A DNA stretch of 51,087 nt from IMG/VR virus record IMGVR_UViG_3300030106_004641, positions 1 to 51,087 of that record. The stretch is one strand, 5' to 3'. Positions 2,207-45,928 of this stretch are shown here, piece after piece. The DNA is from a virus. Below the pieces are notes generated by a model. That model ran no database searches. It was not told the DNA's origin and saw only the letters and a program-made list of their open reading frames with translations. Made by a program: the position numbers and the translations under genes. Each line of letters opens with the position of its first letter. Position 1 is the stretch's first letter.

Positions 2207-3472
2207 ATGGCAATAGTATATTCATACCCTCAAATAACAGAATTAAACGCTAATGATAAATTTATTGTTAGTAAAATGGATCAAGATAATAATCCTACTA
2301 AAACAGTAACACTGGCTCAATTAGCTAGTTTTATAAACTCGACAGGGTTTTCGGGATTTGGAACAACTGATACTTTACCTATATGGAAAGATGGACCAAA
2401 CGGGATACTTGGTGATTCAGTTATTAAACAAGCGCCTGCAGGAGCGGCGAATACTGTTAATATAATACCAATTGATGGCGGAGGTAATTTTTCAGATTTT
2501 TCATTTAATTCTGGCGGTGCTTTAAAATTAGACACTGCAGGTTTTACTGAATATGAATTTAGAGCACAAAATGGAGGGTTTTACAATAGAAGTTTTAAAT
2601 TTCAATCAAAAGAAGGAATATCTATAGGTAGAACTTCAATATCAGGTAATGTAATTTTAGATGTAGGAGATTCTGGAGACACAAAACCGGCAGCTTGGTT
2701 TAGAAACGGCGTAGTAGTTTCAAATAATCCAAGTGGTGTACAAGTTGACAACACATCAATGGTAATTGGAGCTGGTAATAATGATATTGTTTCTGGTTCT
2801 GATAATTCTTTAGCTGTAGGTAATAATAATCAAATATTAGCTGATTCAGATCATTCATTAGCAGTTGGTCAAGGAAACACCATGACCAATGCTGATAACT
2901 CTATAGTGGTTGGTCAACAAAATAATTTAACTGGTAATAGATTATATGTATTAGGTTTTAGCAATGATTTAACTTGCGCATCGGCTTTTGCTTTAGGAGG
3001 CGATAATAATATAACAGGTACACAGAATAACTTTGCTATTGGTTATAATAATGTTGTTTCAGGGCCACAAAAAAATATTACAATTGGAACTAGTAATACC
3101 ATAACCAATGATGGTGGTTTAGGATATGAACAAGCTACAATAATTGGTAACTCATGTAGTTTAACTACGTCAGTAAGCGGTAACTCTACTCAATATGGTA
3201 TGATTGTTATTGGTTCTCAAAACCAACAAAAGTACCCAGGTCCTACAAGTGGCCAGCCATTTAGACCAAAAATTGTTTTAGCAGCCGAAATAAGTGGTCC
3301 AGGTTTAGATGCATTAGTAATATCAGAAGGAATAGGAGGTATTGCATCTATGTTACAGTCTCCTGCTCTACTATCACATAACTTTGCAGATGACACAGCA
3401 GCGGCTACAGGAGGCGTTCCTGTTGGTGGTTTATACCACAATGCTGGTGAAGTTAGAATAAGAACAGTGTAA
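2207..3472 (+). CDS. Putative tail fibre with YadA-like beta-roll repeats
   Basis: The 421-residue product repeats the N-terminal module of its two upstream neighbours (MAIVYSYP, KMDQDNNPTKTVTLAQL). The C-terminal half, about residues 185-310, carries a degenerate 14-15-residue repeat of the form NS-hAhG-xxN (for example DNSLAVGNNNQI, DHSLAVGQGNTM, DNSIVVGQQNNL). This is the signature of the left-handed parallel beta-roll in YadA-like trimeric adhesin heads. The protein is therefore likely to be a trimeric fibre or adhesin on the virion. The start is one base after the preceding stop region, and the leader contains no Shine-Dalgarno. The fold is known from the YadA family; the receptor is unknown. 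Confidence 0.65.
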   Translation: MAIVYSYPQITELNANDKFIVSKMDQDNNPTKTVTLAQLASFINSTGFSGFGTTDTLPIWKDGPNGILGDSVIKQAPAGAANTVNIIPIDGGGNFSDFSFNSGGALKLDTAGFTEYEFRAQNGGFYNRSFKFQSKEGISIGRTSISGNVILDVGDSGDTKPAAWFRNGVVVSNNPSGVQVDNTSMVIGAGNNDIVSGSDNSLAVGNNNQILADSDHSLAVGQGNTMTNADNSIVVGQQNNLTGNRLYVLGFSNDLTCASAFALGGDNNITGTQNNFAIGYNNVVSGPQKNITIGTSNTITNDGGLGYEQATIIGNSCSLTTSVSGNSTQYGMIVIGSQNQQKYPGPTSGQPFRPKIVLAAEISGPGLDALVISEGIGGIASMLQSPALLSHNFADDTAAATGGVPVGGLYHNAGEVRIRTV

Positions 3473-7548: not shown

Positions 7549-9090
7549 ATGATAGTAAAAAATCTGAACTTTGGCGATGAAGCCAGAGACCAGGTATTTA
7601 AAGGTATAGAAAAACTCACAAATGCTGTTAGCTCCACATTAGGAGCTGGCGGTAAATGTGTGATTCTTGAAGATATGCAAGGTAACCCAATAATAACTAA
7701 AGATGGTGTTACAGTTGCTGATTCAATAACCTTATTAAATCCTGTAGAAAATATTGGCGCTAGACTTATAAAAGAAGCAGCGCGTAAAACAGTTAAAGAA
7801 GCTGGTGATGGAACAACTACTGCTACAATACTAGCACACGCTATATTAAAAGAAGCATATGCTAAACTAGATAAAACAAATGCTAGATTAATTAAAGAAG
7901 GTATTTTATCAGCTGTAGACAAAGTAATAGACTATTTAAACAACACATCTGTTCCAGTTGATGAAAAAATAAAAGAAATTGCTACAATTTCAACTAATAA
8001 TGATCCAGAACTAGGAGGTTTAATAGCTGATGCATTTATGGCTGTTGGTAAAACAGGCGTTGTAATAATGGAACCATCATCATTAGGTGAAACTAAAATA
8101 GAAATAGTTGAAGGTGTAGAATATGATAAAGGTTTATTAAATCAAAACTTTATAACAAATAAAGAAAACTCTACGTGTGAATTAGAAAAACCACTAGTAT
8201 TAATAGTTGATTCTAAAATAGATTCAATAAGACAAATACAAGGAGTTTTAGAGCACGTAATAAAAGCTAATAAAGCTTTATTAATAATAGGTCAAGTTGA
8301 AGCGCCTGTTTTATCTGCTCTTGTTATGAATAAAATAAAGGGCAATATAAAAATAAATGTTATTGATCCACCAGCGTTTGGATTAAGACGTAAAGAAATA
8401 TTAGAAGATTTATCTTTACTTACAAGTGCTCAAATAATAAACGAAGATCTTGGAGATGATCTAAATACAATACAAATAGATTACTTGGGTGAATGTTTAA
8501 AAGCTACTACTAGTAATGATCAAACTATAATTCAAGTAAATGAAATAAATAATGAAGTAGAAAATATAATTTCTAATATAAAAGAAAAATTAACTACTAA
8601 ATTAAAACCGCATCAAGTTATAGGCTATGAACAAAGATTAGCTAGATTATCTGCTAAAGTTGCTATAGTTAAAGTTGGTGCTAATTCAGATATTGAATTA
8701 AAAGAAAAACAAGATAGAGTAGAAGATGCTATATGTGCTACTAAAGCCGCTATAAAAGAAGGTATTGTTCCAGGTGGTGGAATTGCATTGTTAAACGCAG
8801 CTACAAGTATTGACGAAGAAAATATTGGCGAAGAGATATTATTAAAATCTATATTATACCCATTTAAAGTAATACTTGAAAACGCTGGCATAATTCCTAA
8901 CGTTCCTGAAAAAGAAGGTTATGGAATAAATGTAGTTACAGGAAATATGGTACACATGATAAGCGAGGGCATAATTGATCCATTATTGGTAACAAAAAGC
9001 GCTTTAACTAATGCGGCTTCTGTAGCAACTACTATATTATCTACTGATTGTGTAATTAATAATATTAGAGTAGATGAAAGCAGTAGGTAG
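7549..9090 (+). CDS. groEL: Phage-encoded GroEL-type (group I) chaperonin
   Basis: The 513-residue product aligns along the full group I chaperonin plan. ATP-site residues are in place and keep E. coli numbering at the start: ITKDGVTVA with D52 and AGDGTTTATIL with D87. The third catalytic aspartate lies in RVEDAICATKAA (D393), followed by EGIVPGGGIALL. The apical domain includes YDKGLLNQNFITN. The C-terminal equatorial segment DPLLVTKSALTNAASVATTIL is typical. It is shorter than the usual 540-550 residues and ends NNIRVDESSR with no GGM tail. It should form folding rings for phage virion proteins together with the GroES-like product of the next gene, which overlaps it by 17 nt. Confidence 0.96.
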   Translation: MIVKNLNFGDEARDQVFKGIEKLTNAVSSTLGAGGKCVILEDMQGNPIITKDGVTVADSITLLNPVENIGARLIKEAARKTVKEAGDGTTTATILAHAILKEAYAKLDKTNARLIKEGILSAVDKVIDYLNNTSVPVDEKIKEIATISTNNDPELGGLIADAFMAVGKTGVVIMEPSSLGETKIEIVEGVEYDKGLLNQNFITNKENSTCELEKPLVLIVDSKIDSIRQIQGVLEHVIKANKALLIIGQVEAPVLSALVMNKIKGNIKINVIDPPAFGLRRKEILEDLSLLTSAQIINEDLGDDLNTIQIDYLGECLKATTSNDQTIIQVNEINNEVENIISNIKEKLTTKLKPHQVIGYEQRLARLSAKVAIVKVGANSDIELKEKQDRVEDAICATKAAIKEGIVPGGGIALLNAATSIDEENIGEEILLKSILYPFKVILENAGIIPNVPEKEGYGINVVTGNMVHMISEGIIDPLLVTKSALTNAASVATTILSTDCVINNIRVDESSR

Positions 9091-32563: not shown

Positions 32564-34162
32564 ATGGCTTTAACTATAGATGTAAACTATTTTAATTCCT
32601 TTTATCTAAAAAGAGTTTATGGAACAGGAAAAGTGCAATTTGGTGCTAATGCTCCAGTAGATGGAAACATACCTTATGCTTATGAACAAGGTTGGTTACC
32701 AATAGAAGGTACTATAATACCAACTACTGGTATAAGAACTTGGAGAACAAGTGATGATTCTTTTAGTAACTTTGTATTTAATACTTTTTCTGGTTCAACT
32801 GAATTAGACTGGTGTATTGAAGAAGCAAGAATTAGAGGTGGTTTTAATAACACTAGTGTAGACTTTGGAGTTAAAGCTTACATTGTAGAAGATAATCCTA
32901 ACCAACAAAGATTATCTAACACTGTTATCTATTCAGGTATTTTTAACGCTAGAACTGGTGTAAATAATACAAATCAATTTAGTGTTGGTGAAGAAATAAC
33001 TAGAGGTGTAGATCCAATAAGTGGAAGTATACAGAGACTTTATGCTGAAGATACTAACTTAATAGTATTTCAAGAAAGAAAAGTAAATGTAGCTTTAATA
33101 GATAAAGATGCTATATTTACCGCGGAAGGTTTAGGTATTAGTACAACAGGAAGACAAGTAATAGGGCAAATAACTCCTGTTCCAGGAAATTGGGGTATTG
33201 GTAAAAATCCAGAATCATTTGCCGTATATGGTTATACAAAATATTTTGCAGATAAAGAGCAAAATGCTGTGTTAAAAATGGAAGGTACCAGTATTCAAGA
33301 AATATCTTTAGCTGGAATGACAGATTTCTTTAGAGATAGATTTAATGAATTAGGACCAACAGGAAGATTAGTAGGTGGTTATGATATATATAATAAAAAC
33401 TATGTATTATCTTTACAAAGTTCTAGTGATATTGTTACTACTTTTCCAGCACAAGCTCAAGATCTTATAAATAATACGGTTGATTTATCAGGCGATATAT
33501 CTACGGGTTATACTTTATCATGGGATGAAAGAGCTAAAGGTTGGACGGGTTTTGCAACATATACTCCTAATAATATTTTTAGTTGTATAGGTAAATTTTA
33601 TTCAACTAATTTTGGAAGAGTGTATGAACATTATAGCAACCCTATAAGAAATAGTTTTTATAATCAACCAGCAGAAGCATCTATAGTTCAATTTGTTTTT
33701 AATCCGAATCCAAATATCACTAAAACATTTAAAACTATAAATTATGAAGGTAGTAATGGATGGGACGTGTTAAGTATAGAATCAGATAATACAGGTGAAA
33801 TTGAATATCCAATAGGATCTGGTATTTATAAAAACTATAACGACGATGCTACTGGTGAAGTTAGAGAAGCAGATGGTGCTGGTTCAGGTGTAATATATAA
33901 TCAAATATATAGTTATCAAGAAGGAGCATATTCAGAAAACGGAATTCAGTATAGAGCTGGATTTGATAGAAAACAAAATAAATATTACGCAGTTATACCT
34001 AATAATACACAAGATCCTATACCAGGAGAAGTTATATGGGGTAATCAAACTATGGGAATAAAAGGATATTATACAACTGTAACAATGAGTACAGATCAAA
34101 CAACAAATTTAGGCGGACCAAAAGCATTATTTGCCGCCAGTAGTGAATATATAAATAAATAA
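32564..34162 (+). CDS. Tail structural protein (beta-propeller-like hub component)
   Basis: The 532-residue product starts MALTIDVNYFNSFYLKRVYG and has LDWCIEEARIRGGFNNTSVD (about 85-104), IQRLYAEDTNLIVFQERKVN (about 156-175), WGIGKNPESFAVYGYTKYFA and EISLAGMTDFFRDRFNELGP. Short repeated strand-turn segments with FxVYGxxKYFAD-type signatures resemble the propeller part of P22 gp10-like proteins, and the gene directly follows a protein with the N-terminal half of such a system. A split two-gene tail-stabilisation assembly is plausible. The start follows a short AT-rich leader without a Shine-Dalgarno. Confidence 0.6.
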   Translation: MALTIDVNYFNSFYLKRVYGTGKVQFGANAPVDGNIPYAYEQGWLPIEGTIIPTTGIRTWRTSDDSFSNFVFNTFSGSTELDWCIEEARIRGGFNNTSVDFGVKAYIVEDNPNQQRLSNTVIYSGIFNARTGVNNTNQFSVGEEITRGVDPISGSIQRLYAEDTNLIVFQERKVNVALIDKDAIFTAEGLGISTTGRQVIGQITPVPGNWGIGKNPESFAVYGYTKYFADKEQNAVLKMEGTSIQEISLAGMTDFFRDRFNELGPTGRLVGGYDIYNKNYVLSLQSSSDIVTTFPAQAQDLINNTVDLSGDISTGYTLSWDERAKGWTGFATYTPNNIFSCIGKFYSTNFGRVYEHYSNPIRNSFYNQPAEASIVQFVFNPNPNITKTFKTINYEGSNGWDVLSIESDNTGEIEYPIGSGIYKNYNDDATGEVREADGAGSGVIYNQIYSYQEGAYSENGIQYRAGFDRKQNKYYAVIPNNTQDPIPGEVIWGNQTMGIKGYYTTVTMSTDQTTNLGGPKALFAASSEYINK

Positions 34163-34164
34163 TT

Positions 34165-34949
34165 ATGGCATTAGGAGTAGCATTAGGAATAGGAAGCAGT
34201 ATTGTCGGGGGAATACTAGGGGGTAGTAGAGCTAAAAAAGCTCAAGCTGCTGCGCAAAAAGAAGCGGCTAGACTGCAGTCAAGACTAAATACATTGGAAG
34301 CAAATAGACAACCTATTATAAATCCTTTTGAAAGTATTACAGATCTTTCAAGAATGGCTACTGATTATTCATCTCAATTTAGTAATCCTTATGCTAATTT
34401 ATCTGTTGCTACTCAAGCTGCAGAGATGCAGATAGAACAAACAGATATAGCCTTAGCTAATACACTAGATACATTAGCGCAAACTGGTGGTGGTGCTGGT
34501 GGTGCCACTGCTTTAGCAAAAGCTGCTGCTGCTAGTAAAAAAGAAGTTTCTGCTAGTATTGAACAACAAGAGGCTCAAAATGAAAAATTAAGAGCTCAAG
34601 GTGAACAACAATTAGAATCTAAAATTATTGGTGAAAAACAAAGAATAGAAGGTATACAGATGAGTCAAGCTCAAAGAGTTCAACAAGCTGAAGCTTCAGG
34701 GGCACAATTTGTATATCAACAAAGAGAAGCTAGAGAACAAATGCAAATTGATAGAACCGCAGCAATGTTAGATAACGCTAGGATGCAAGCTGCTCAAGCT
34801 GGTGCTGATAGAACAGCTGCTCTGACCGGTATGCTTGGAGGAATAACCAGTGCACTTGGTGGTTTGGGAAAGGAGTAGCCGGAGACGGCTCTAATATTCC
34901 AGATCTTACTGACAATCAAGTTGAGTTAGGTTTTGAACTACCAGAATAA
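34165..34949 (+). CDS. Internal/ejection-type virion protein with candidate -1 frameshift extension
   Basis: The in-frame product (34165-34878) is 237 residues, with a small hydrophobic N-terminus (MALGVALGIGSSIVGGILGG) and a long Ala/Gln-rich helical coiled coil, typical of ejection proteins made after the tail genes. It stops at TAG 34876-34878. A perfect slippery heptamer G GGA AAG lies at 34866-34872, followed by a hairpin AGCCG-GAGA-CGGCT (77-90 of that 100-base block). A -1 shift would continue through GVAGDGSNIPDLTDNQVELG to TAA at 34947-34949, giving about 261 residues. The extension looks coding and fills the gap before the next gene. An assembly error or mutation is the alternative. 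Confidence 0.65.
34866..34890 (+). promoter_or_regulatory. Candidate programmed -1 ribosomal frameshift site
   Basis: GGGAAAG (34866-34872) is positioned in the zero frame as G-GGA-AAG, exactly the X-XXY-YYZ arrangement; the same heptamer serves the lambda G-GT frameshift. A 5-bp stem AGCCG/CGGCT with a GAGA loop (34877-34890) begins 4 nt after it, and A74-G75 can extend the stem past one bulged T. TAG follows in frame 0 one codon after the heptamer. Confidence 0.55.
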
Positions 34950-34968: not shown

Positions 34969-36384
34969 ATGTCATATAGAAATCCTAAATACACATATCA
35001 ATCTCACGCGCCTTATTATCAAAATTTAATAGATGCAGGTGTAAAAGCTGGGCAACAAATTGATAAAAACATAGAAGATAGAAAAGAGCAAGAGAAATTA
35101 GAAAAAGAAAAGCAAGAAAAAATTAATGCAGCTAGAGTTGAAGCTGGAAGAGGAGCTAATCAAAGTCATGTAACTACTGGAGTTCAAAGTAATACTTATG
35201 GTAATGAGGTTACAAAAGGTGCAATTGGTAATTTTTTTACTGGTACTGGAGGATTAGTTGGTGATTTAACTATGCAGACAACGGGTCCTGATGCTCCTTG
35301 TAATAGAGCTGGAAACTGTGCTGAGTTAAATGCTAGACTAGCTACATTAAACAAGGCTCCAGAAGTAATTAAAGATTTTACCGAAAGAATGTTGGCTCAA
35401 GTAAATTATGATGATTATGAAAATTTTGATGAAAATCAAGGTGGTAATTTTATATTAGCTGCTAATGTATTAGGAAGTAAAGGACAATTTACTCCAGCAT
35501 ATGGTTATTCATATGATATAGAAGAAAATCAAATTGAAGGTGAAAACGGTGAAATGACATATGATGGTAGTTATAATTGGGTTTTTAAATTTGATGAAAA
35601 TAAAGCTAGAAAACAAATTGAAGCTGATTGTGAAAAAATGCCTACTCAAGCTGGGTGTGATGATATTGATGGTCTTATTGATAAAATGAAATTTGAAGGA
35701 GATAGCTTTAAAATAAATAGTGCTGGTCTTAAACAACAAACATCAGGTAATCCACCTGGCAGTGTATTTGTTAGAACACCTAAAATGTCTAATGAAATGC
35801 AAGATATAATAACAACTTCAGAATTATTAATTGGTGCAGAAAGAGATGATAAAGGTCAAATAATAAAAGGAACTGGTACTTTTGATATTCAGAAATTTAA
35901 ACTACAAGATGCAGAAGGTTTTGATGAATTTGTTACAATACAAGAAGGAACTGTAGGTGAAGGTGATACAGCTATGCCATTAAACATGTCTTATAATAAA
36001 ATTGATAGACAAAAAGTAGAAGATCATATAGGCACTGAACTTCTTACAAAGTTTAATTATTACTCAGAACCTCAAAACCAAGGTCAAGCTATTGCTCTTT
36101 GGAATAAAGTTTTATCTAAAAAAGATTTAAGTGATATAAATGTAGAAGAAGTAGAAAAAGCTATAGGATTTGTACCAACAGAAGAAGATTTAAAAATATG
36201 GAGTTATGATGATCCTAATGGTTTAAGTGATAAACAATTGAAATTGTTTAAACATTTGTATAGTGAATACGCTGTAGATGAAATTGTAGGATTAATGGGT
36301 AACGAATTATATAAACAACAAAGAGCTTATAAACCAGTTCAAGAAGGAACTGCTAATCCAAAAGTTGACAAAGATCTAATATAA
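34969..36384 (+). CDS. Internal virion protein, function unknown
   Basis: The 471-residue product starts MSYRNPKYTYQSHAPYYQNL. Residues 30-60 form a highly charged helix (EDRKEQEKLEKEKQEKINAA), followed by a mixed globular part with CNRAGNCAEL and CEKMPTQAGCDDID, giving two cysteine pairs. It lies between the ejection-type protein and the giant protein and ends 10 nt before the latter. Position suggests an internal core or ejection protein. No domain is recognised. Confidence 0.55.
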   Translation: MSYRNPKYTYQSHAPYYQNLIDAGVKAGQQIDKNIEDRKEQEKLEKEKQEKINAARVEAGRGANQSHVTTGVQSNTYGNEVTKGAIGNFFTGTGGLVGDLTMQTTGPDAPCNRAGNCAELNARLATLNKAPEVIKDFTERMLAQVNYDDYENFDENQGGNFILAANVLGSKGQFTPAYGYSYDIEENQIEGENGEMTYDGSYNWVFKFDENKARKQIEADCEKMPTQAGCDDIDGLIDKMKFEGDSFKINSAGLKQQTSGNPPGSVFVRTPKMSNEMQDIITTSELLIGAERDDKGQIIKGTGTFDIQKFKLQDAEGFDEFVTIQEGTVGEGDTAMPLNMSYNKIDRQKVEDHIGTELLTKFNYYSEPQNQGQAIALWNKVLSKKDLSDINVEEVEKAIGFVPTEEDLKIWSYDDPNGLSDKQLKLFKHLYSEYAVDEIVGLMGNELYKQQRAYKPVQEGTANPKVDKDLI

Positions 36385-36394
36385 AAATTAAATA

Positions 36395-39300
36395 ATGAGT
36401 AGAGAAGCTTTATATACTGAATTATATAAAAAATACGCTACAGATTTAACAGATGATCAAATTGCTGAAAAAGTAAAATATGCTTCATCTGTACCAGATC
36501 AACAAGCAGTTATAGATACTATTTACGAAAAGTATACTGGTAAAAAACCTACGTTTGATCAACGATTGTATATAACTAAACAAGTAGATCAACAAAATAT
36601 AAACTCTGTTATTAAAAATGAAAATGCTAGAAGGCAAGCTGCGTACGAAAAACTAGTTGAAGATCAAAAAGCTAAAAAGTTAAAAGACGAAGAAGAGTGT
36701 AACCCAGGTAGCGAATGTGCTAAACTAAAAGCTGCAGAAGACGAGAACAAAAGAATACAAGATATAAATGATGAGTTTGATTCAAACTTTATTGGTGGCA
36801 AAAACTCTAAAGATCCAGATTATCTTAGATTAAAAGACGCAGATGCTAAAGACAAAGCTCTTTATTTAAAAGAAAAAAAGTTACAAGAGGAATATGATTT
36901 AAATGATAAGGGTGAAAAAAGTTGGTGGGGTAATATAAAACAAACTTTAGCCGTAGCTACTACTGATCCTGGTTCGTTTCTTATTTTTGGATTTAATAAC
37001 CCTAAAGTTTATGCAGCTAATGCTCAACAAGAGTATGCTTATGATAAAGAAATGGAGTTAGAAGCTTTAGAGCAAGACATTGCAGCTGGAAACGTTACTC
37101 CAGAAAATAAGCAAAAACTATTAGATTTAACAGCTGATTTGCAAGGTGCTTATAGAACTGTAAATAAAGTTGATATAGTTGGAGCTCCAGAATATTTTGA
37201 TAATAAATATCAAGAAATAATAGGTAGGCAAATTACTGAGTTAAATAATCGTTATCCTACAGAAGAAGATAAAAACACAGAAGAATATGCTAGAGAATAC
37301 GCTGATATAAAAAGCCAAAGACCCGAAGATATTGAGTTAACAAAAGAAGATTTTGATAGTGAAACGGATTATAACTTATATAATCAAAGACAACAAGACA
37401 ATAATTTAGTAGATCAATTAAGAAATAAACTTTCAAAAAGATACGATATTGCGCAACAACGAGGTGAAATGCTAGACGACGCTAGTTTGTATAGTAAAAC
37501 CGAGTATGAAGCTTTAACTGAAGCTCAAAATAGTATATTTGATTATAATGATCCTATGAATGAAGAGTTTAGACTAGAAATGGATAGTATAGCTCAAAGA
37601 TTAGGCATGGAAAATGGAGAGGAATTAGCTAATGGATTACGAAAATCTACAGATAAAAATAAATATATCAACAGGCTTCAAACAAAGTTAGACAATAAAT
37701 TAAATAAAGATTATACAGCGCAAATAGACGAGCAATACGATGTAGCTGAAAATTGGTTTGGAGGAGGATATGAAATAACTATAGGCGCCAACGATGAAAG
37801 CACTACTTTTCAAGGAAAACAATTAATACCTAAACCAACTAAAGCTTTAATAGAACGTTCTCAAAAAGCTTTAGGAAATGAAGAAGATTTCATACAATCA
37901 GCTGGTAAAACTACTACAGTAGATGGTGTTGAAGTAGATGCTCAAAAAAATATACAAAATCAAGCTTTTCAAAATTTGATAACAAGTGATGCTACTATTA
38001 AAGCAATGATGAATAAATATGCGGAAGAAGCTAAACCAAAATTAGAAGCATACAAAAAACAGTTAGATACTAAATTTGATTTTACTAACAAAGAAGATGT
38101 TGAAGAAGCTAATAGATTGTTAGAACAAAAACAAAAAGAATTAACATTAGACAGGCTGTATAATGATCCAATGTTTAAGCAAATATCTACAGATTACGGT
38201 ATGGCTTTAGATACCGCGTCAAGAAATTTAGATACATCGTTTGCAAGAAAAGATTCTTGGTTTTTAAATACTATAGATAAAGTAGACGCGGCTACTCAAT
38301 ATGTTCCTATAGTGGGTTTATTAGATGAAGTAGTTGAAGGATTTGTTTCTGGAGCCGAAGGCATGCGGAGTTCTATTGCTGATAAAGCATGGGGAAGTAT
38401 TTCCGGTAATAGGTATAGAGCTAATAAAGAAAGAGGCGAACTTTTAAATAAACAAATAGAAGACGGAGATTTTACAGCAGAAGATAGGGTTTATTTTAAA
38501 GGTGGAAAATTTTATAAGTGGACACCTGAAAGTGGAGTACCTAAAAATAGATCTTATAATGCTCAAGAAAGAGCTGATAAATTACGTAAAGATAAAGATT
38601 ATTGGCAGTCTGAAATTGTAGAACAAATTGAAGACATTGCAGATAGTGAAGAATTTTTATCTGCATTTAGACAATCTGATTTTAAAGATGGAATTAGTTT
38701 TGCTGATGCGGCTTTAACAGTTGGTCAATCATTACCACATATAGCTACTGCTGGTGCGGGTGCTATAACTGGTAATCCTGTGTTAGCTTATTTAGGTACT
38801 GCCGCTATGTTTGCTCAAATGTACGGTGATAATTATTGGAGTGCTATAGAAAAAAATCTAGATAAAAAAGGATTATCTAAAGAACAATTAAAAGTTCAGT
38901 TTCCTGATAAATCTAAGGCGGAAATAGATGAGTTATATAAGCAAGCAGCAATAGGTAATTTACAAACAGGTGAAGGAGCGAATATGGCGCACTCAGCTGC
39001 AATGGCGGCTGTTCAAACCGCGCTAGAAACCTATGGTGCTAATCAAGTAATTGGCGGTACACAAAAAGCACTTGCAGGAAAATTAGCTGGAGGTCAATTA
39101 ACCATGGGTAATTTATTTAAATCATCTTGGGACGATATTGGAAACTGGATGTTAAGAGGAGCGGTTGAAAAAGGTGGTAATGCATTAGAAGAATTTGGTA
39201 CAGAATTTATGCAAGAAATTGTAGGTCAAATCTCTACAGCTCAACAAGCTGGTTTAGAATCCACAGCTCTTATAGATATGGATAGTGCTTTTCAAGCAGG

Positions 39301-42300
39301 TGTTGGTGGTGCGTTAACAGGGTTTTTCTTACCATTTTCTGGTTCAGTTATAAACCAAACAAGTACTATGTTAAGACAAAGTGCTAATGATATAGCTTTA
39401 AAATATGCTCCAGAAAGTGCTATGGCTAAATCTTATAGTGTTTCTAACGAATGGTTTAAACAAACTACTGAAAAATTAGAAAATGAGTATAAGGATAAAA
39501 TGGACGATCCTGCTAAAGCTCAAGAATATTATGAAAAATTAGCAGCAATTTCTAATAGTTACAATGCTAGTATAAAATTAGGTTTAATACCTAATATTAA
39601 AATTGGTGGATTAAATACTGTAGATAATTTTACTAAAAATATGACTGAAGGTAATAGAAGACAATTACTAGATGATTATGTTAAAATAGAAGAAATTAGT
39701 AATCAAATTAGCGCATTAGACAAAGATGATCCACAAGTAAAAGTATTAAAAGAAGAATTAGGCCAAGTACAAGATAGAGCTGCTGAGCTTATAAAAGCAG
39801 AAAAAACAACTGATAAAGTAGCTCAAGTTTTAAAAGATGCTGGTAAAACTGAGGACATGATTGTTGTAGATGATATACAGCAAGAAGCAAACAAAAGAAA
39901 TGTAGCTTTAGATGAAGACGCTGTAACAACAGGATTTTTTATATCTGATAAAGATGGTGGTAGATTTGTAGTTTCTAAAGACATGGCTGCTAAAATGAAA
40001 GAAGGCAACACAGCTGCTCATGAATTATTGCATAAAGTTTTATTTAAAACTCTTTATGAAGTAGACGGAGATGGTAATATAAAAGGTAAAAATGTAGCAA
40101 GAGGAATGGCTGCCGCACTAGACTCTGTGTTAGATACTTTAGATCCAGCAGATGTAAAAGATAGTAAATTTAAAAGAAAATTAGAACTTTATAAAAAAGA
40201 TCCAGCAGCTATTAGAGCTGAAGAAAAAATAGTTTTATTTTCAGACGCAATAGAAAGTGGTGATTTAAAATTTAATGAAAACGTATTTACTAAAATAGGT
40301 GATCAAATAAGAAGATTTTTACAAGCAGCTGGTTTAAGAGATGTTAAATTTAATAGTGGAAGAGATGTTTATAATTTCTTAAAAGATTATAATGCTTCTA
40401 TTCAAAAAGGAAAATTAAATCAAGCTCAAAAGAAAATGATGAATGAAGGAGCTGAGGTTGGTGCAGATATAAGAAGGTTTCAAGGAAGTGAAGGTAACTT
40501 AGGAAAAGTATCACAAAAATCTAATAAAGCTTTAAACGATTTAACTAATAATTATCAACAAGAGTTAAAACAAAACCCTGAAGCAAATCCTAGTAAAGAA
40601 TTAAAAGGTCAATATACAGCTGCTAGTTTAGATGCTCTTAACAGATGGGCTGCACAAAGAGGTGTTCCTTTAAATTTTTATACAAAACAAGGTGGTTTAA
40701 CTCAACAAGGTAGGGAGGCTTTATCAGCGGTAAACAATCAGTTTTCTGATATAATGAGAACTTATAAACCTGTAGTAAATGGTAAAAAAGTTTCTCTTAC
40801 AACTTATTTAGACAAAACTATTGGTCCTAGAGTTGGTACAGAGTTAGTATCAGAAGCGACTAGAAAAGGAAAACAAGTTAGTCAAGACGTTTTAAATGAA
40901 AAAGGTGTTTCATTAGAAACAACTACACAAAAAGATTTTGATGCTAAAGAACAACAAGATACAAGTAGAAAAAAGAAATATCCATCTTCTTTAAAAGCAG
41001 TTAGAGAAAATATAACACCTGAAAGTAAAAAAGCTTTAATAGGTACTGTTGACGAAGCTGGTAGAACGACTGGAGCAGCTAAAACTATAATTCAAGGTGT
41101 AGGTAAAAATATAAGTTCTGAAGGAGTAGCTAAAGATATTATAGCTTCTACAAAAGATAAATCTGTTATGCAACAGATGAGAAAAGACATCGGAAAATTT
41201 GGTAGTGATTCATATAATCAATTTGTTGATAATGTAGTAAATGAAGGTTTAACCAAAACTATTCCTGCCGCTACTATAAAACGTAGACTAGGAAGAAAGG
41301 CGAACGTAGAATCAGGCTTAATAGATTATGAACAAACAGGTACTACCCCCACTATTAATGTAACCAAAGAAGGAAAGAAAACATATTTTGATAAACCAGT
41401 TTATAAAATTAATAAAGTAGATAATACTAAACTAAAAGAATATTATAAAGCTGGAGAAAAAAGACAACAGTCTTTGTTTAGCATGTTGGCAGAAGGAACT
41501 ATTGTAGAAGGAATTAGTGATTTAAAAAATGATCAAGCATTTGTTAATAAATTAGGTGACACACTTGAATTAAAAAATAAAGAATTTAAAAATGAGTTAG
41601 ATCAATTAAAACAAGAACTAACCCAACAAGATTTAAACGCAGAAGAAGTTGCTAAAAAAATTAAAACTAGTAAAGATAATTTAACTAAAGATTATTTAGA
41701 TAATATAGCTGAACAATTAGATCAAAGAAGCAAAGAAGATACATCGTTAGATGTTGTAAAAGCGAATAAGGCTTTAGTTTCTAAAAAGAATGTAGCTAAA
41801 TTAAATGAAGCTGATTTAGCTAAAATAATGCAAACAAGTGGTATAGATGTTATAGCTAAAGATTTACCAGGCGAAACAACTGTAACTCCGGAAAATAGAA
41901 AAGCTCGACAAAAGTCTGTTTTAAAAAGTATAAAAGACGGAAAAGTTCCTTTTGAAATGCTTAAACTATTAGGACTTAAAAACTTTGGAGCTCAAAGAAT
42001 TGTAAATAACAATGGTGATTATGAATATGTTTTAGATAATGGTAAAACAATGCTTGGTAATCCTCGTTTGGATAATGGAAAAATTAGAAGAGATAAAAAT
42101 GGTAAAAAATTATATGATCCTCCAACAGTAGAACAAATACAAGAAGTTCATGGTGAAGGTGTATATCTTCAAGCTAATAGAGGATCTCTTTTTGCGGGTA
42201 AAAATGATCCAGCTTATTTAGCTTTAGAAGAAACAGCTAAAGAAAATAGTAAATCTTTTGATCAAAAAGTTTTAGATAATTTTAATAAAGTAAAAAGAAT

Positions 42301-45300
42301 TAAAATAAAAAAAGGTCAAAGGCTAACTGCTGAGATTAAAAAGAAAAACGCAGCGCAAGAAAAAATAAACATGCAAGCGCTAAATGATTTCTATAATATT
42401 TTAAATACAAGAGACAAAAATGGTAAATTAGTTATACCTATAAATGATTCAGCCTTACTTATTTCTCAAGCTTACCAAGGAACAACTTCTTTAATAAAAA
42501 TTGCAGCTCCTTTTGTAGGTGTTTCCGATACATTTGTTAGAGCAACTGATGGTAAACAAGCAAGACTTAAAGAGAATTTTATAGAAGAACACAGTCCACC
42601 AGCTTCTTCTATTGGTGCAGCTATGATTTGGGGATTAAAAAATAATCAAGTTGATGCTGTAATGAAAGGAATACGAGATAATTTTATTCAAGTTCAATTA
42701 TCTACTGCTGATGATAGAAAATTAGATTTATCAAAATTAGATAAAACTTTACCGGAAGGAATGAGTATATTAACTCCAAATGTAGGTATGTTGCGATTAG
42801 CAGCTGCCGAAGTTAACGGAGCTAATACTATTAATTTAAATACTATAACTGATTTAAAAACAGGTAAAACTTTTGCTGAAACCGTAGGATTAGTTATACC
42901 AAAATCTGAATTTAATAATCCTAGTGCTATTAATTATCAAAATAGATTAATGGTTGATATGGCCTTGAACCCTGAATTAACATTATCTGATTCAAAGAAG
43001 AGACTAAATATTAGTATGCCAATACAGTCTTTAAAAAATAATAATGTTAAAAAAGCTAATAAAGCTTTAAACTCAGAAATATTTAATGAGAATAGAACAG
43101 GTGAACAAAATAAAAATACAATGGTTAATTCTTTTGAAACTAGAGTTAAAGCTAATAAAGCTTTAAACAAAGAAACAAAAGGAATAAGTGTCTTTGATTT
43201 TGATGATACATTAGCAAGAACTAAAGAAAAGGTAATAGTTACAAATCCAGATGGAACAGTTACTGAAATATCAGCAAGTCAATTTGCTCAACAAGCGGAT
43301 ACATTAACAGAAGCTGGCGCAACATTTGATTTTAGTAATTTTGAGCAAGTTTCTACGGATACAGCAGAAGGACCATTAGCGGAACTAGCTAGAAAAAGAC
43401 AAGGTAAATTTGGTAGTAAAGATATATTTGTTCTTACCGCGAGACCTCAAACATCTGCTACAGCTATTAAAACATTTTTAGATGGAATAGGTATAAACAT
43501 ACCAATAGAAAATATAACTGGCTTAGAAGATGGTTCTCCACAAGCTAAAGCTGATTGGGTTTTAAATAAAACCGCGGAAGGATATAATGATTTTTATTTT
43601 GCAGATGATTCATTTGCTAACGTAGCAGGTGTAAAAGCTGTATTAGATGCTGTAGATGTTAAATCTAAAGTTCAAGTAGCTAAATCAAATAAAGCAGCTA
43701 AGCTAGATAATGATTTTAACAAACAATTAGAAGAAGTAACTGGTAAAGAAAGTTTTAAAGAATATTCCACAGCAAGAGCAAGATTAGAAGGCAAACAAAA
43801 GGACAGTGGATTAATAAAAAGATTTTTAAAACAATTTACAATTACTCCTTCTGCTGATGATTTCATGGGATTAATGTATGCTATGATAGGTAAAGGTGAA
43901 CAGGGTAATAGACATATGAAATTTATTAAAGATAATTTAGTAGATATTTATAATAAAGCAGAGCAAGAATTAATGTCAGCAAAAATAGCTGTAGCTAATG
44001 ATTTTGCAGCGCTTAAAAAACAGTTTCCTAATTTAAAAAGCAAGGGTTTAAAGAATCCTTTATTACAACCTATCGGAGTAGGTCCTTATACAAAATCTCA
44101 AGCAATGAGAGTTTACATGTGGAATAAACAAGGTATGGATATTCCGGGTATGTCGAAGCGAGATATAAACGCTTTGGTTGCTGCGGTAGAAGCAGATAAT
44201 GAATTAAATGTTTTTGCAGATGAGGTTATATTAATTCAAAAAGATAGTCAATATCCGCCTCCAAGTAGAAACTGGTTAGCCGGCGATATTAAAACAGATA
44301 TATTAGAAGGTTTAAACAATACGTTTAGAACTAAATTAATGGCGGAGTTTAATGAAAACGCAGATATTATATTTTCTGAAAAGAATTTAAACAAAATAGA
44401 AGCTTTATATGGTACTAAGTATAGAGAAGCTTTAGAAGATTCTTTACGTAGAATGAAATCAGGTACTAACAGACCGAACTATCAAGGACCTGGTTCTCGT
44501 GTAGTTAATGAAATGCTTGACTGGTTAAATTCATCTGTTGGTGCTGTAATGTTTTTTAACATGAGATCTGGTTTATTGCAGACGTTATCTTCTGTAAACT
44601 TTATAAATTGGGGTGATAATAATTTTATAAATGCTGCTAAAGCTTTTGCTAGTAAAGAGTATTTTCCTACAGTACTAAAATTAATGAACTCTGATTACTT
44701 AGTAAATAGACGTGATGGTTTAAAGATAAATGTTAATGAAGCTGAGCTTGCTGATGCAGGTAGAAAAGGTGGAATAAAAGGTATGATTAATTATATCCTT
44801 GATAAAGGTTTTGCTATAACAAGAATAATGGATAGTGTAGCTATAGCAACAGGTGGTGCTACATTTTTTATTAATAGAAAAAAAGCTTTATTAAATAGAG
44901 TAAATGAAGAAACTGGAAAATTATATACAGAAGCTGAAGCAGAAGCAAAAGCATTTGATGATTTTTATGCAATAGCTGAAGAAACTCAACAATCAAGTAA
45001 CCCTAGTAAAATATCATCTCAACAAGCTAGTATGGCTGGACGTGTATTGTTATCGTTTCAAAACGTAACAATGCAGTATAATAGAAAAGTTAAAAAATCT
45101 ATACAAGATCTTTATAATAGGCGTAAAAAACCAGGAATGACTCAACGTGAAAGTGATCTTAGTAATATGTCTAGTATAATATATTATGTTGGAGTACAAA
45201 ACCTTGTGTTTAACGCGTTACAACAAGCTTTATTTGCTATGGCTTTTGAAGAAGAAGATGAAAAAGAAAAAAATAGAGCAGCAAATGTAGCTAATGGTAT

Positions 45301-45928
45301 GGTTGACTCATTATTGTTTGGTCTTGGATTTGGTGGAGCTATAGTGTCTACAGTTAAAAATATAGCTATGAGAGTTGCTGATGAATCTCAAAAAAAGACT
45401 ACAGATTATGAAGATATTATATGGGATGTTTTCAATGTTTCACCAGTATTAGACTCTAAAATTCGTAAACTAAGAACTACAGCTAAAACATTTGACTGGA
45501 ATATGAAGGAAATAAAAAGGCGAGGTTGGAGTTTAGATAACCCAGCTTATTTAGCTGTTAGTCAAATAATATCTGCAACAACAAATATTCCTGTAGATCG
45601 AGTATTAAGAAAAATGATGAACGTAGGACAAGCTTTTGATGAAGAAACTAGAACATGGCAAAGAATTGCACTATTACTTGGGTGGTCTGGTTGGAATGTA
45701 GGTTTACCATATTGGGGTAGACAAAGTACTATTGAAAGAGAAGCAGCAGAAGACGAAAAATTAAAAGAAAAATTTAGCAATGATGTTCGTAAAGTAAAAG
45801 AACAAGGTTTTACTAAGCGAGTACCATTAACTGGTCCTAAGGCGGGTAAACCATCAGGAGTTTTAGGAGTAGATTATGTACAAATAGAAAGACCTGATGG
45901 TCAAATCCAATATTATAAAAAACCATGA
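36395..45928 (+). CDS. Giant multidomain virion protein with HExxH and HAD-like domains
   Basis: The 3177-residue product is highly charged with long helical N-terminal regions. Hydrophobic or membrane-like segments lie near 770-800 and 968-986 (AGVGGALTGFFLPFSG). AAHELLHKVLF holds a zinc-peptidase HExxH (H1209, E1210, H1213), with AEEKIVLF (E1276/E1277) as possible third ligand. A complete HAD phosphatase-like domain spans about 2262-2425: VFDFDDTLART (D2268, D2270, T2272), VLTARP, the KADWVL lysine, and FYFADDSFANV. The C-terminus has FFNMRSGLLQTLSSVNFINW and two more hydrophobic helices (about 2936-2990). The motif (A/S)NKAL recurs at domain boundaries. Such proteins are usually packaged and ejected with DNA; precise activities are inferred. 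Confidence 0.85.
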   Translation: MSREALYTELYKKYATDLTDDQIAEKVKYASSVPDQQAVIDTIYEKYTGKKPTFDQRLYITKQVDQQNINSVIKNENARRQAAYEKLVEDQKAKKLKDEEECNPGSECAKLKAAEDENKRIQDINDEFDSNFIGGKNSKDPDYLRLKDADAKDKALYLKEKKLQEEYDLNDKGEKSWWGNIKQTLAVATTDPGSFLIFGFNNPKVYAANAQQEYAYDKEMELEALEQDIAAGNVTPENKQKLLDLTADLQGAYRTVNKVDIVGAPEYFDNKYQEIIGRQITELNNRYPTEEDKNTEEYAREYADIKSQRPEDIELTKEDFDSETDYNLYNQRQQDNNLVDQLRNKLSKRYDIAQQRGEMLDDASLYSKTEYEALTEAQNSIFDYNDPMNEEFRLEMDSIAQRLGMENGEELANGLRKSTDKNKYINRLQTKLDNKLNKDYTAQIDEQYDVAENWFGGGYEITIGANDESTTFQGKQLIPKPTKALIERSQKALGNEEDFIQSAGKTTTVDGVEVDAQKNIQNQAFQNLITSDATIKAMMNKYAEEAKPKLEAYKKQLDTKFDFTNKEDVEEANRLLEQKQKELTLDRLYNDPMFKQISTDYGMALDTASRNLDTSFARKDSWFLNTIDKVDAATQYVPIVGLLDEVVEGFVSGAEGMRSSIADKAWGSISGNRYRANKERGELLNKQIEDGDFTAEDRVYFKGGKFYKWTPESGVPKNRSYNAQERADKLRKDKDYWQSEIVEQIEDIADSEEFLSAFRQSDFKDGISFADAALTVGQSLPHIATAGAGAITGNPVLAYLGTAAMFAQMYGDNYWSAIEKNLDKKGLSKEQLKVQFPDKSKAEIDELYKQAAIGNLQTGEGANMAHSAAMAAVQTALETYGANQVIGGTQKALAGKLAGGQLTMGNLFKSSWDDIGNWMLRGAVEKGGNALEEFGTEFMQEIVGQISTAQQAGLESTALIDMDSAFQAGVGGALTGFFLPFSGSVINQTSTMLRQSANDIALKYAPESAMAKSYSVSNEWFKQTTEKLENEYKDKMDDPAKAQEYYEKLAAISNSYNASIKLGLIPNIKIGGLNTVDNFTKNMTEGNRRQLLDDYVKIEEISNQISALDKDDPQVKVLKEELGQVQDRAAELIKAEKTTDKVAQVLKDAGKTEDMIVVDDIQQEANKRNVALDEDAVTTGFFISDKDGGRFVVSKDMAAKMKEGNTAAHELLHKVLFKTLYEVDGDGNIKGKNVARGMAAALDSVLDTLDPADVKDSKFKRKLELYKKDPAAIRAEEKIVLFSDAIESGDLKFNENVFTKIGDQIRRFLQAAGLRDVKFNSGRDVYNFLKDYNASIQKGKLNQAQKKMMNEGAEVGADIRRFQGSEGNLGKVSQKSNKALNDLTNNYQQELKQNPEANPSKELKGQYTAASLDALNRWAAQRGVPLNFYTKQGGLTQQGREALSAVNNQFSDIMRTYKPVVNGKKVSLTTYLDKTIGPRVGTELVSEATRKGKQVSQDVLNEKGVSLETTTQKDFDAKEQQDTSRKKKYPSSLKAVRENITPESKKALIGTVDEAGRTTGAAKTIIQGVGKNISSEGVAKDIIASTKDKSVMQQMRKDIGKFGSDSYNQFVDNVVNEGLTKTIPAATIKRRLGRKANVESGLIDYEQTGTTPTINVTKEGKKTYFDKPVYKINKVDNTKLKEYYKAGEKRQQSLFSMLAEGTIVEGISDLKNDQAFVNKLGDTLELKNKEFKNELDQLKQELTQQDLNAEEVAKKIKTSKDNLTKDYLDNIAEQLDQRSKEDTSLDVVKANKALVSKKNVAKLNEADLAKIMQTSGIDVIAKDLPGETTVTPENRKARQKSVLKSIKDGKVPFEMLKLLGLKNFGAQRIVNNNGDYEYVLDNGKTMLGNPRLDNGKIRRDKNGKKLYDPPTVEQIQEVHGEGVYLQANRGSLFAGKNDPAYLALEETAKENSKSFDQKVLDNFNKVKRIKIKKGQRLTAEIKKKNAAQEKINMQALNDFYNILNTRDKNGKLVIPINDSALLISQAYQGTTSLIKIAAPFVGVSDTFVRATDGKQARLKENFIEEHSPPASSIGAAMIWGLKNNQVDAVMKGIRDNFIQVQLSTADDRKLDLSKLDKTLPEGMSILTPNVGMLRLAAAEVNGANTINLNTITDLKTGKTFAETVGLVIPKSEFNNPSAINYQNRLMVDMALNPELTLSDSKKRLNISMPIQSLKNNNVKKANKALNSEIFNENRTGEQNKNTMVNSFETRVKANKALNKETKGISVFDFDDTLARTKEKVIVTNPDGTVTEISASQFAQQADTLTEAGATFDFSNFEQVSTDTAEGPLAELARKRQGKFGSKDIFVLTARPQTSATAIKTFLDGIGINIPIENITGLEDGSPQAKADWVLNKTAEGYNDFYFADDSFANVAGVKAVLDAVDVKSKVQVAKSNKAAKLDNDFNKQLEEVTGKESFKEYSTARARLEGKQKDSGLIKRFLKQFTITPSADDFMGLMYAMIGKGEQGNRHMKFIKDNLVDIYNKAEQELMSAKIAVANDFAALKKQFPNLKSKGLKNPLLQPIGVGPYTKSQAMRVYMWNKQGMDIPGMSKRDINALVAAVEADNELNVFADEVILIQKDSQYPPPSRNWLAGDIKTDILEGLNNTFRTKLMAEFNENADIIFSEKNLNKIEALYGTKYREALEDSLRRMKSGTNRPNYQGPGSRVVNEMLDWLNSSVGAVMFFNMRSGLLQTLSSVNFINWGDNNFINAAKAFASKEYFPTVLKLMNSDYLVNRRDGLKINVNEAELADAGRKGGIKGMINYILDKGFAITRIMDSVAIATGGATFFINRKKALLNRVNEETGKLYTEAEAEAKAFDDFYAIAEETQQSSNPSKISSQQASMAGRVLLSFQNVTMQYNRKVKKSIQDLYNRRKKPGMTQRESDLSNMSSIIYYVGVQNLVFNALQQALFAMAFEEEDEKEKNRAANVANGMVDSLLFGLGFGGAIVSTVKNIAMRVADESQKKTTDYEDIIWDVFNVSPVLDSKIRKLRTTAKTFDWNMKEIKRRGWSLDNPAYLAVSQIISATTNIPVDRVLRKMMNVGQAFDEETRTWQRIALLLGWSGWNVGLPYWGRQSTIEREAAEDEKLKEKFSNDVRKVKEQGFTKRVPLTGPKAGKPSGVLGVDYVQIERPDGQIQYYKKP

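Follow-up and report, generated by a model that had tools for sequence, protein, structure and literature searches.

Does the gene that follows the muzzle-domain gene of this phage end at its stop codon, or do some of the ribosomes slip back by one base and append an overlapping reading frame to the protein? The window analyzed here is the whole stretch of 51,087 nucleotides, i.e., the 51-kb IMG/VR contig IMGVR_UViG_3300030106_004641, which is from a marine relative of the crAss-like phages. Its muzzle-like gene has matches in Flavobacterium, Cellulophaga, Tenacibaculum, and Maribacter phages, its portal matches phrog_6547, and the host of the phage is presumably a member of the Bacteroidota. 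Elsewhere, the window encodes a Cpn60/GroEL-family chaperonin (7549-9090, + strand; Pfam PF00118, E 3.3e-57) and perhaps a fibre-like protein (2207-3472, + strand; ice-binding beta roll and YadA head repeats, a weak match under the curated cut-offs). Two genes 3' of the gene in question lies an ORF of 3177 residues (36395-45928, + strand), with a weak, below-cut-off match to DUF7639 and no match in a PHROG search. The features at and around the locus are as follows:

32564..34162, + strand: muzzle-domain protein, upstream neighbor (Pfam PF25729 crAss_MUZ_C, E 2.3e-10)
34165..34878, + strand: 0-frame ORF of 237 residues, encoding the short form of what is probably an internal virion protein of the cargo/ejection type (hhalign to Bacteroidota phage virion proteins)
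34866..34872, + strand: slippery heptamer G_GGA_AAG in exact X_XXY_YYZ register (read in the sequence; same site class in 33 of 313 relatives)
34872..34949, + strand: -1 frame tail GVAGDGSNIPDLTDNQVELGFELPE and its stop (translation after a -1 slip)
34876..34878, + strand: 0-frame stop TAG, 3 nt past the heptamer, i.e., with one codon between (in most relatives, directly after the heptamer)
34877..34890, + strand: candidate stimulatory hairpin AGCCG-GAGA-CGGCT, 4 nt past the heptamer, with a perfect 5-bp stem
34969..36384, + strand: downstream neighbor of 471 residues, at the place where phi18:3 has another virion protein, gp121 (MS/MS annotation)

A cassette at the 3' end of the gene

The gene ends in ..GGT TTG GGA AAG GAG TAG, and the original prediction had read a -1 frameshift site into this end on the strength of three features, all of which we recovered. 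The GGGAAAG heptamer is in exact slippery register (TTG GGA AAG GAG TAG), and it is the sole in-register GGGAAAN among the 16,015 codons of the main ORFs of the window. The small hairpin 3' of it is present, with RNAfold adding two further pairs below a bulge and giving -10.8 kcal/mol (z = -1.8) for a stretch of 40 nt. A -1 slip at this site would yield K and then the 25 new residues, an extension that reaches toward the next gene, its stop codon ending at 34949 and the next ATG lying at 34969. As far as the sequence can be read, the site thus combines the three features by which a programmed ribosomal frameshifting cassette is recognized, namely the X_XXY_YYZ register, a downstream structure, and an overlapping coding -1 ORF. 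We conclude that programmed -1 ribosomal frameshifting very probably takes place close to the 3' end of the gene and would yield both a short and a tailed product.

The same kind of cassette was found at the same place in relatives, i.e., a heptamer, a spacer of 3 to 8 nt, a hairpin, and a coding -1 tail, which bears out the conservation that the original prediction had proposed to look for. Scanning at the protein level, seven times through IMG/VR and once through GTDB genomes, yielded 313 distinct sequences that include the 3' end of the gene. An in-register GGGAAAN occurred within the last five codons in 26 of these, against an expectation of 0.18 derived from the remaining parts of these genes, and the total rises to 33 with other slip sites (AAAAAAG and GGGGGGN, three each, and one AAAGGGC). 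Such end sites were absent from the 948 other ORFs of the same loci, and GGGAAA in the two wrong registers was absent among the counts listed (269 sequences). The commonest heptamer among 30 frameshift relatives was GGGAAAG (14 of 30), and the 0-frame stop stood directly behind the heptamer in 23 of them. Because dozens of related phages share the kind of signal and its position, chance or sequencing error is very unlikely. Three further candidates (L083, L032, and L099) matched through AT runs and had an unconvincing tail, so they were set aside.

Since a dinucleotide-shuffle z-score on 40 nt had little power (mean -0.68), we adopted a positional test, which counts perfect stems of 4 bp or more, of sufficient GC content, that start 3 to 8 nt past the heptamer. 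Such a hairpin was present at 22 of the 33 sites, whereas 1,000 shuffles gave 3.6 on average and never more than 10. Control windows, shifted into the tail or taken within the same genes, had hairpins in 9 to 11%. The hairpin starts peaked at offsets of 4 to 7 nt and were rare at other offsets; stimulatory structures generally start 5 to 8 nt downstream (PMC4066793). A simple hairpin was absent at 11 of the 33 sites, which may use other structures. A GTAAG.CC-type stretch past the slip site is common to six relatives (L026, L119, L166, L420, L452, and L181), mostly members without a simple hairpin, and may be a pseudoknot arm or merely a conserved peptide (SVSP/SVRP).

Alternative readings of the overlapping frame

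The 0-frame stop could be an ordinary one, with the open stretch downstream either untranslated or what remains of the coding sequence of a former tail after a frameshift mutation. Roughly half of the relatives are indeed tail-less at the same point, in line with this reading, but a -1 tail, 12 to 100 codons long, is present in 26 of 26 relatives with GGGAAAN. Moreover, the differences between the tails of relatives are concentrated at the third codon position of the -1 frame, with 85, 84, and 157 mismatches at the three codon positions over 365 codons of tail pairs that were picked by tail similarity and are non-independent. The stretch past the stop in non-frameshifting relatives, on the other hand, is AT-rich and unstructured (GC 0.18 versus 0.53). 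We consider an ordinary stop very improbable. Near the 0-frame stop of two relatives, L049 (5712) and L194, we also observed a -1 tail akin to those of the frameshift members next to no canonical heptamer, perhaps reached by single-tRNA slips.

An assembly or sequencing indel, by which a base was lost or gained in the G/A run of a gene that truly runs in one frame, is even harder to credit. It would account for the relatives that carry the tail in frame, and it fits the observation that the window's own site is seen in one assembly alone, a search for a second assembly of the exact site having found none. A pair of relatives with 95% identical cores (L079 and L222) does look like a homopolymer indel: A run of A is nine bases long in one of them and ten in the other, and the otherwise conserved tail is read in the -1 frame in the one and in frame in the other. 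An indel, an assembly error, or transcriptional slippage could underlie this pair, a homopolymer indel being probable, and because of this difference within a long A run, L079 was dropped as frameshift evidence. However, GGGAAA is no long homopolymer, and errors would not enrich in-register X_XXY_YYZ sites about 140-fold over expectation, nor set hairpins at a constant distance from them. Identical sites, furthermore, recur in contigs of different metagenomes (L034/L036, L064/L065, L112/L418, and L189/L190).

Less likely still, the second form might be made by transcriptional slippage instead of ribosomal frameshifting. Slippage of this kind is possible at the runs of eight G (L181/L184), seven G (L452), and nine A (L079), but the runs of the commonest site, GGGAAAG, are only three bases long, and the codon register together with the spaced hairpin fits ribosomes and not a polymerase. 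Least likely of all is an extension in the same frame by TAG recoding or readthrough, which is known in crAss-like phages and would suit the TAG at the 0-frame stop of the window and of 21 of 30 frameshift relatives, but the 0-frame extension is short (median of 6 codons, against 31.5 in the -1 frame and 7 in the +1 frame), TAA and TGA occur at the site as well, and the window employs all three stops (TAA 33, TAG 7, and TGA 6).

A probable internal protein with three kinds of ends

The protein that would be extended by the frameshift is ~24 kDa, with hydrophobic glycine-rich stretches at its N- and C-terminal ends. An hhalign comparison matched its core to a set of proteins of cultured Bacteroidota phages (probability 96.7, E 3.7e-10, 147 columns). 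Among its members are phi18:3 gp120 and phi38:1 gp099, both matching phrog_13764 ("virion structural protein"), and the annotation of phi18:3 gp120 and of the next gene product, gp121, comes from MS/MS. From this remote homology to virion proteins, one of them annotated from MS/MS, the window protein is probably a virion component. More direct searches found no match, neither hmmscan of P0001, L034, and L124 against phrog_13764 nor tblastn of P0001 and L034 against named phages, which were reached solely via the muzzle gene. An AlphaFold model of the core was all helical and of low confidence (pLDDT 65, pTM 0.30); a PDB fold search with it returned nothing at E <= 0.001, and weak Vipp1 fold matches were therefore disregarded. 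The original prediction had called the protein "ejection-type," a description that is plausible and indirect: Its position directly after the muzzle-domain gene and its remote homology to Cellulophaga phage virion proteins speak for it, and the "ejection" or "cargo" label itself draws on this gene order and on the crassvirus model (PMC10172136).

Across the family, about half of the relatives stop at the core, others are tailed in frame, and others frameshift. The short form of the frameshift members runs 0 to 9 residues past the conserved core, like the tail-less relatives, and the fused form runs 19 to 47. Because about half of the relatives end tail-less, the short form alone can function; conversely, because some relatives encode the tail in frame, the tail is a real protein sequence. 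For example, the in-frame tail PPTEVGETWGSYTPTL of L114 is the counterpart of the -1 tail PPVEVGEEWGSYTPSL of its relative L124. Relatives that encode both parts in one frame had been named in the original prediction as a finding that would refute it, and they exist, both in this pair and in the in-frame ends of the elemo and phi38:1 phages. The frameshift reading nevertheless stands, with other relatives keeping the -1 arrangement along with its signals.

The nearest relatives of the window, with cores 88 to 89% identical, carry different, unrelated in-frame tails and no heptamer, and related -1 tails were found on divergent cores (L118/L306/L479 and L026/L166/L420). On a FastTree phylogeny of 269 cores, the 30 frameshift tips require at least 24 state changes, compared to 27 to 30 for five shuffled labelings, counts that cover gain, loss, and module exchange alike. 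The frameshift trait therefore appears labile, its tips being scattered over the tree. On balance, we favor the view that a -1 cassette has come and gone repeatedly within a single family of internal proteins of marine Bacteroidota phages, which has switched between no tail, an obligatory tail, and a programmed mixture. Partial tailing of an injected protein would then be selectable. Tail and slip-site modules may, in this scenario, move between divergent cores.

Proposed mechanism and comparison with known systems

On G_GGA_AAG, tandem slippage of tRNA-Gly and tRNA-Lys, aided by a hairpin, is known to yield a fraction of fused product. In the window gene, most ribosomes would read GGA AAG GAG TAG and stop, which gives the 237-residue short form, while a fraction would be paused by the hairpin 4 nt downstream and slip one base back, with tRNA-Gly and tRNA-Lys re-pairing with GGG AAA. 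The slipped ribosomes would append the 25-residue tail, and the peptide across the slip site of the fused form would be of the type ..GLGKGVAGDGSNIPDL... Partial slippage would thus leave the virion or the assembly pathway with one internal (cargo/ejection-type) protein in two versions, some copies bearing the tail and some lacking it. We infer the slippage itself, its efficiency, and the virion location, and the two forms would presumably be made in the fixed ratio that was originally predicted. Most likely, the tail would serve as a docking or encapsidation contact that is wanted on only some of the subunits. Some Z bases (GGGAAAT) make weaker slip sites in E. coli, a rule that may not be that of the host. 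In E. coli, ribosomes shift very readily on G_GGA_AAG, and haloviruses use G_GGA_AAC (PMC5009743).

No earlier description of this frameshift was found in the literature searched, a scope outside of which most subscription literature lies. The mechanism is classic, and the frameshift gene and its recurrence appear to be undescribed. The G/GT frameshift of phage lambda uses the same G_GGA_AAG heptamer. Like the window site, it is a -1 shift that falls close to the 3' end of a gene for morphogenesis and gives a short and a tailed form (PMC5009743). Unlike it, G and GT are tail-assembly chaperones that are absent from virions and are encoded beside the tape-measure gene of long-tailed phages, whereas the window gene has a muzzle gene upstream and an MS/MS-annotated virion protein as a remote homolog. 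T7 10A/10B is similar in that a -1 shift near the end of a structural gene of a short-tailed phage gives two forms, but T7 gene 10 encodes the major capsid protein and has another shift site and a distant 3' stimulator (PMC5009743). The genes of phi18:3 gp120 and phi38:1 gp099 (phrog_13764), which are remotely homologous to the window protein, stand in a similar gene order; their tail, by contrast, is in frame, and the ends inspected have no slippery site at the stop. The window gene lies directly downstream of the muzzle gene, as gp45 does in PhicrAss001, where we take the muzzle to be gp44 with gp45 next. PhicrAss001 gp45 (C1) is an internal cargo protein of 90.8 kDa that is expected to be ejected via the tail (PMC10172136). 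The window protein differs from it in its far smaller size and had no match in PDB sequence searches, a set that may lack full gp45.

For Alteromonas phage H4/4, a -1 frameshift that involves overlapping endolysin and internal virion protein genes has been proposed, which is a different arrangement. Standard gene calls would miss the tail of the window gene. Among tailed phages, the most familiar cases of frameshifting are those of the tail chaperones and of the T7 capsid. The present one would affect a probable cargo/ejection protein of phages related to the crass group, and it shows up at many points of a single tree. This recurrence amounts to a comparative experiment set up by nature, one that asks why a phage would benefit from making an internal protein partly with and partly without a tail.
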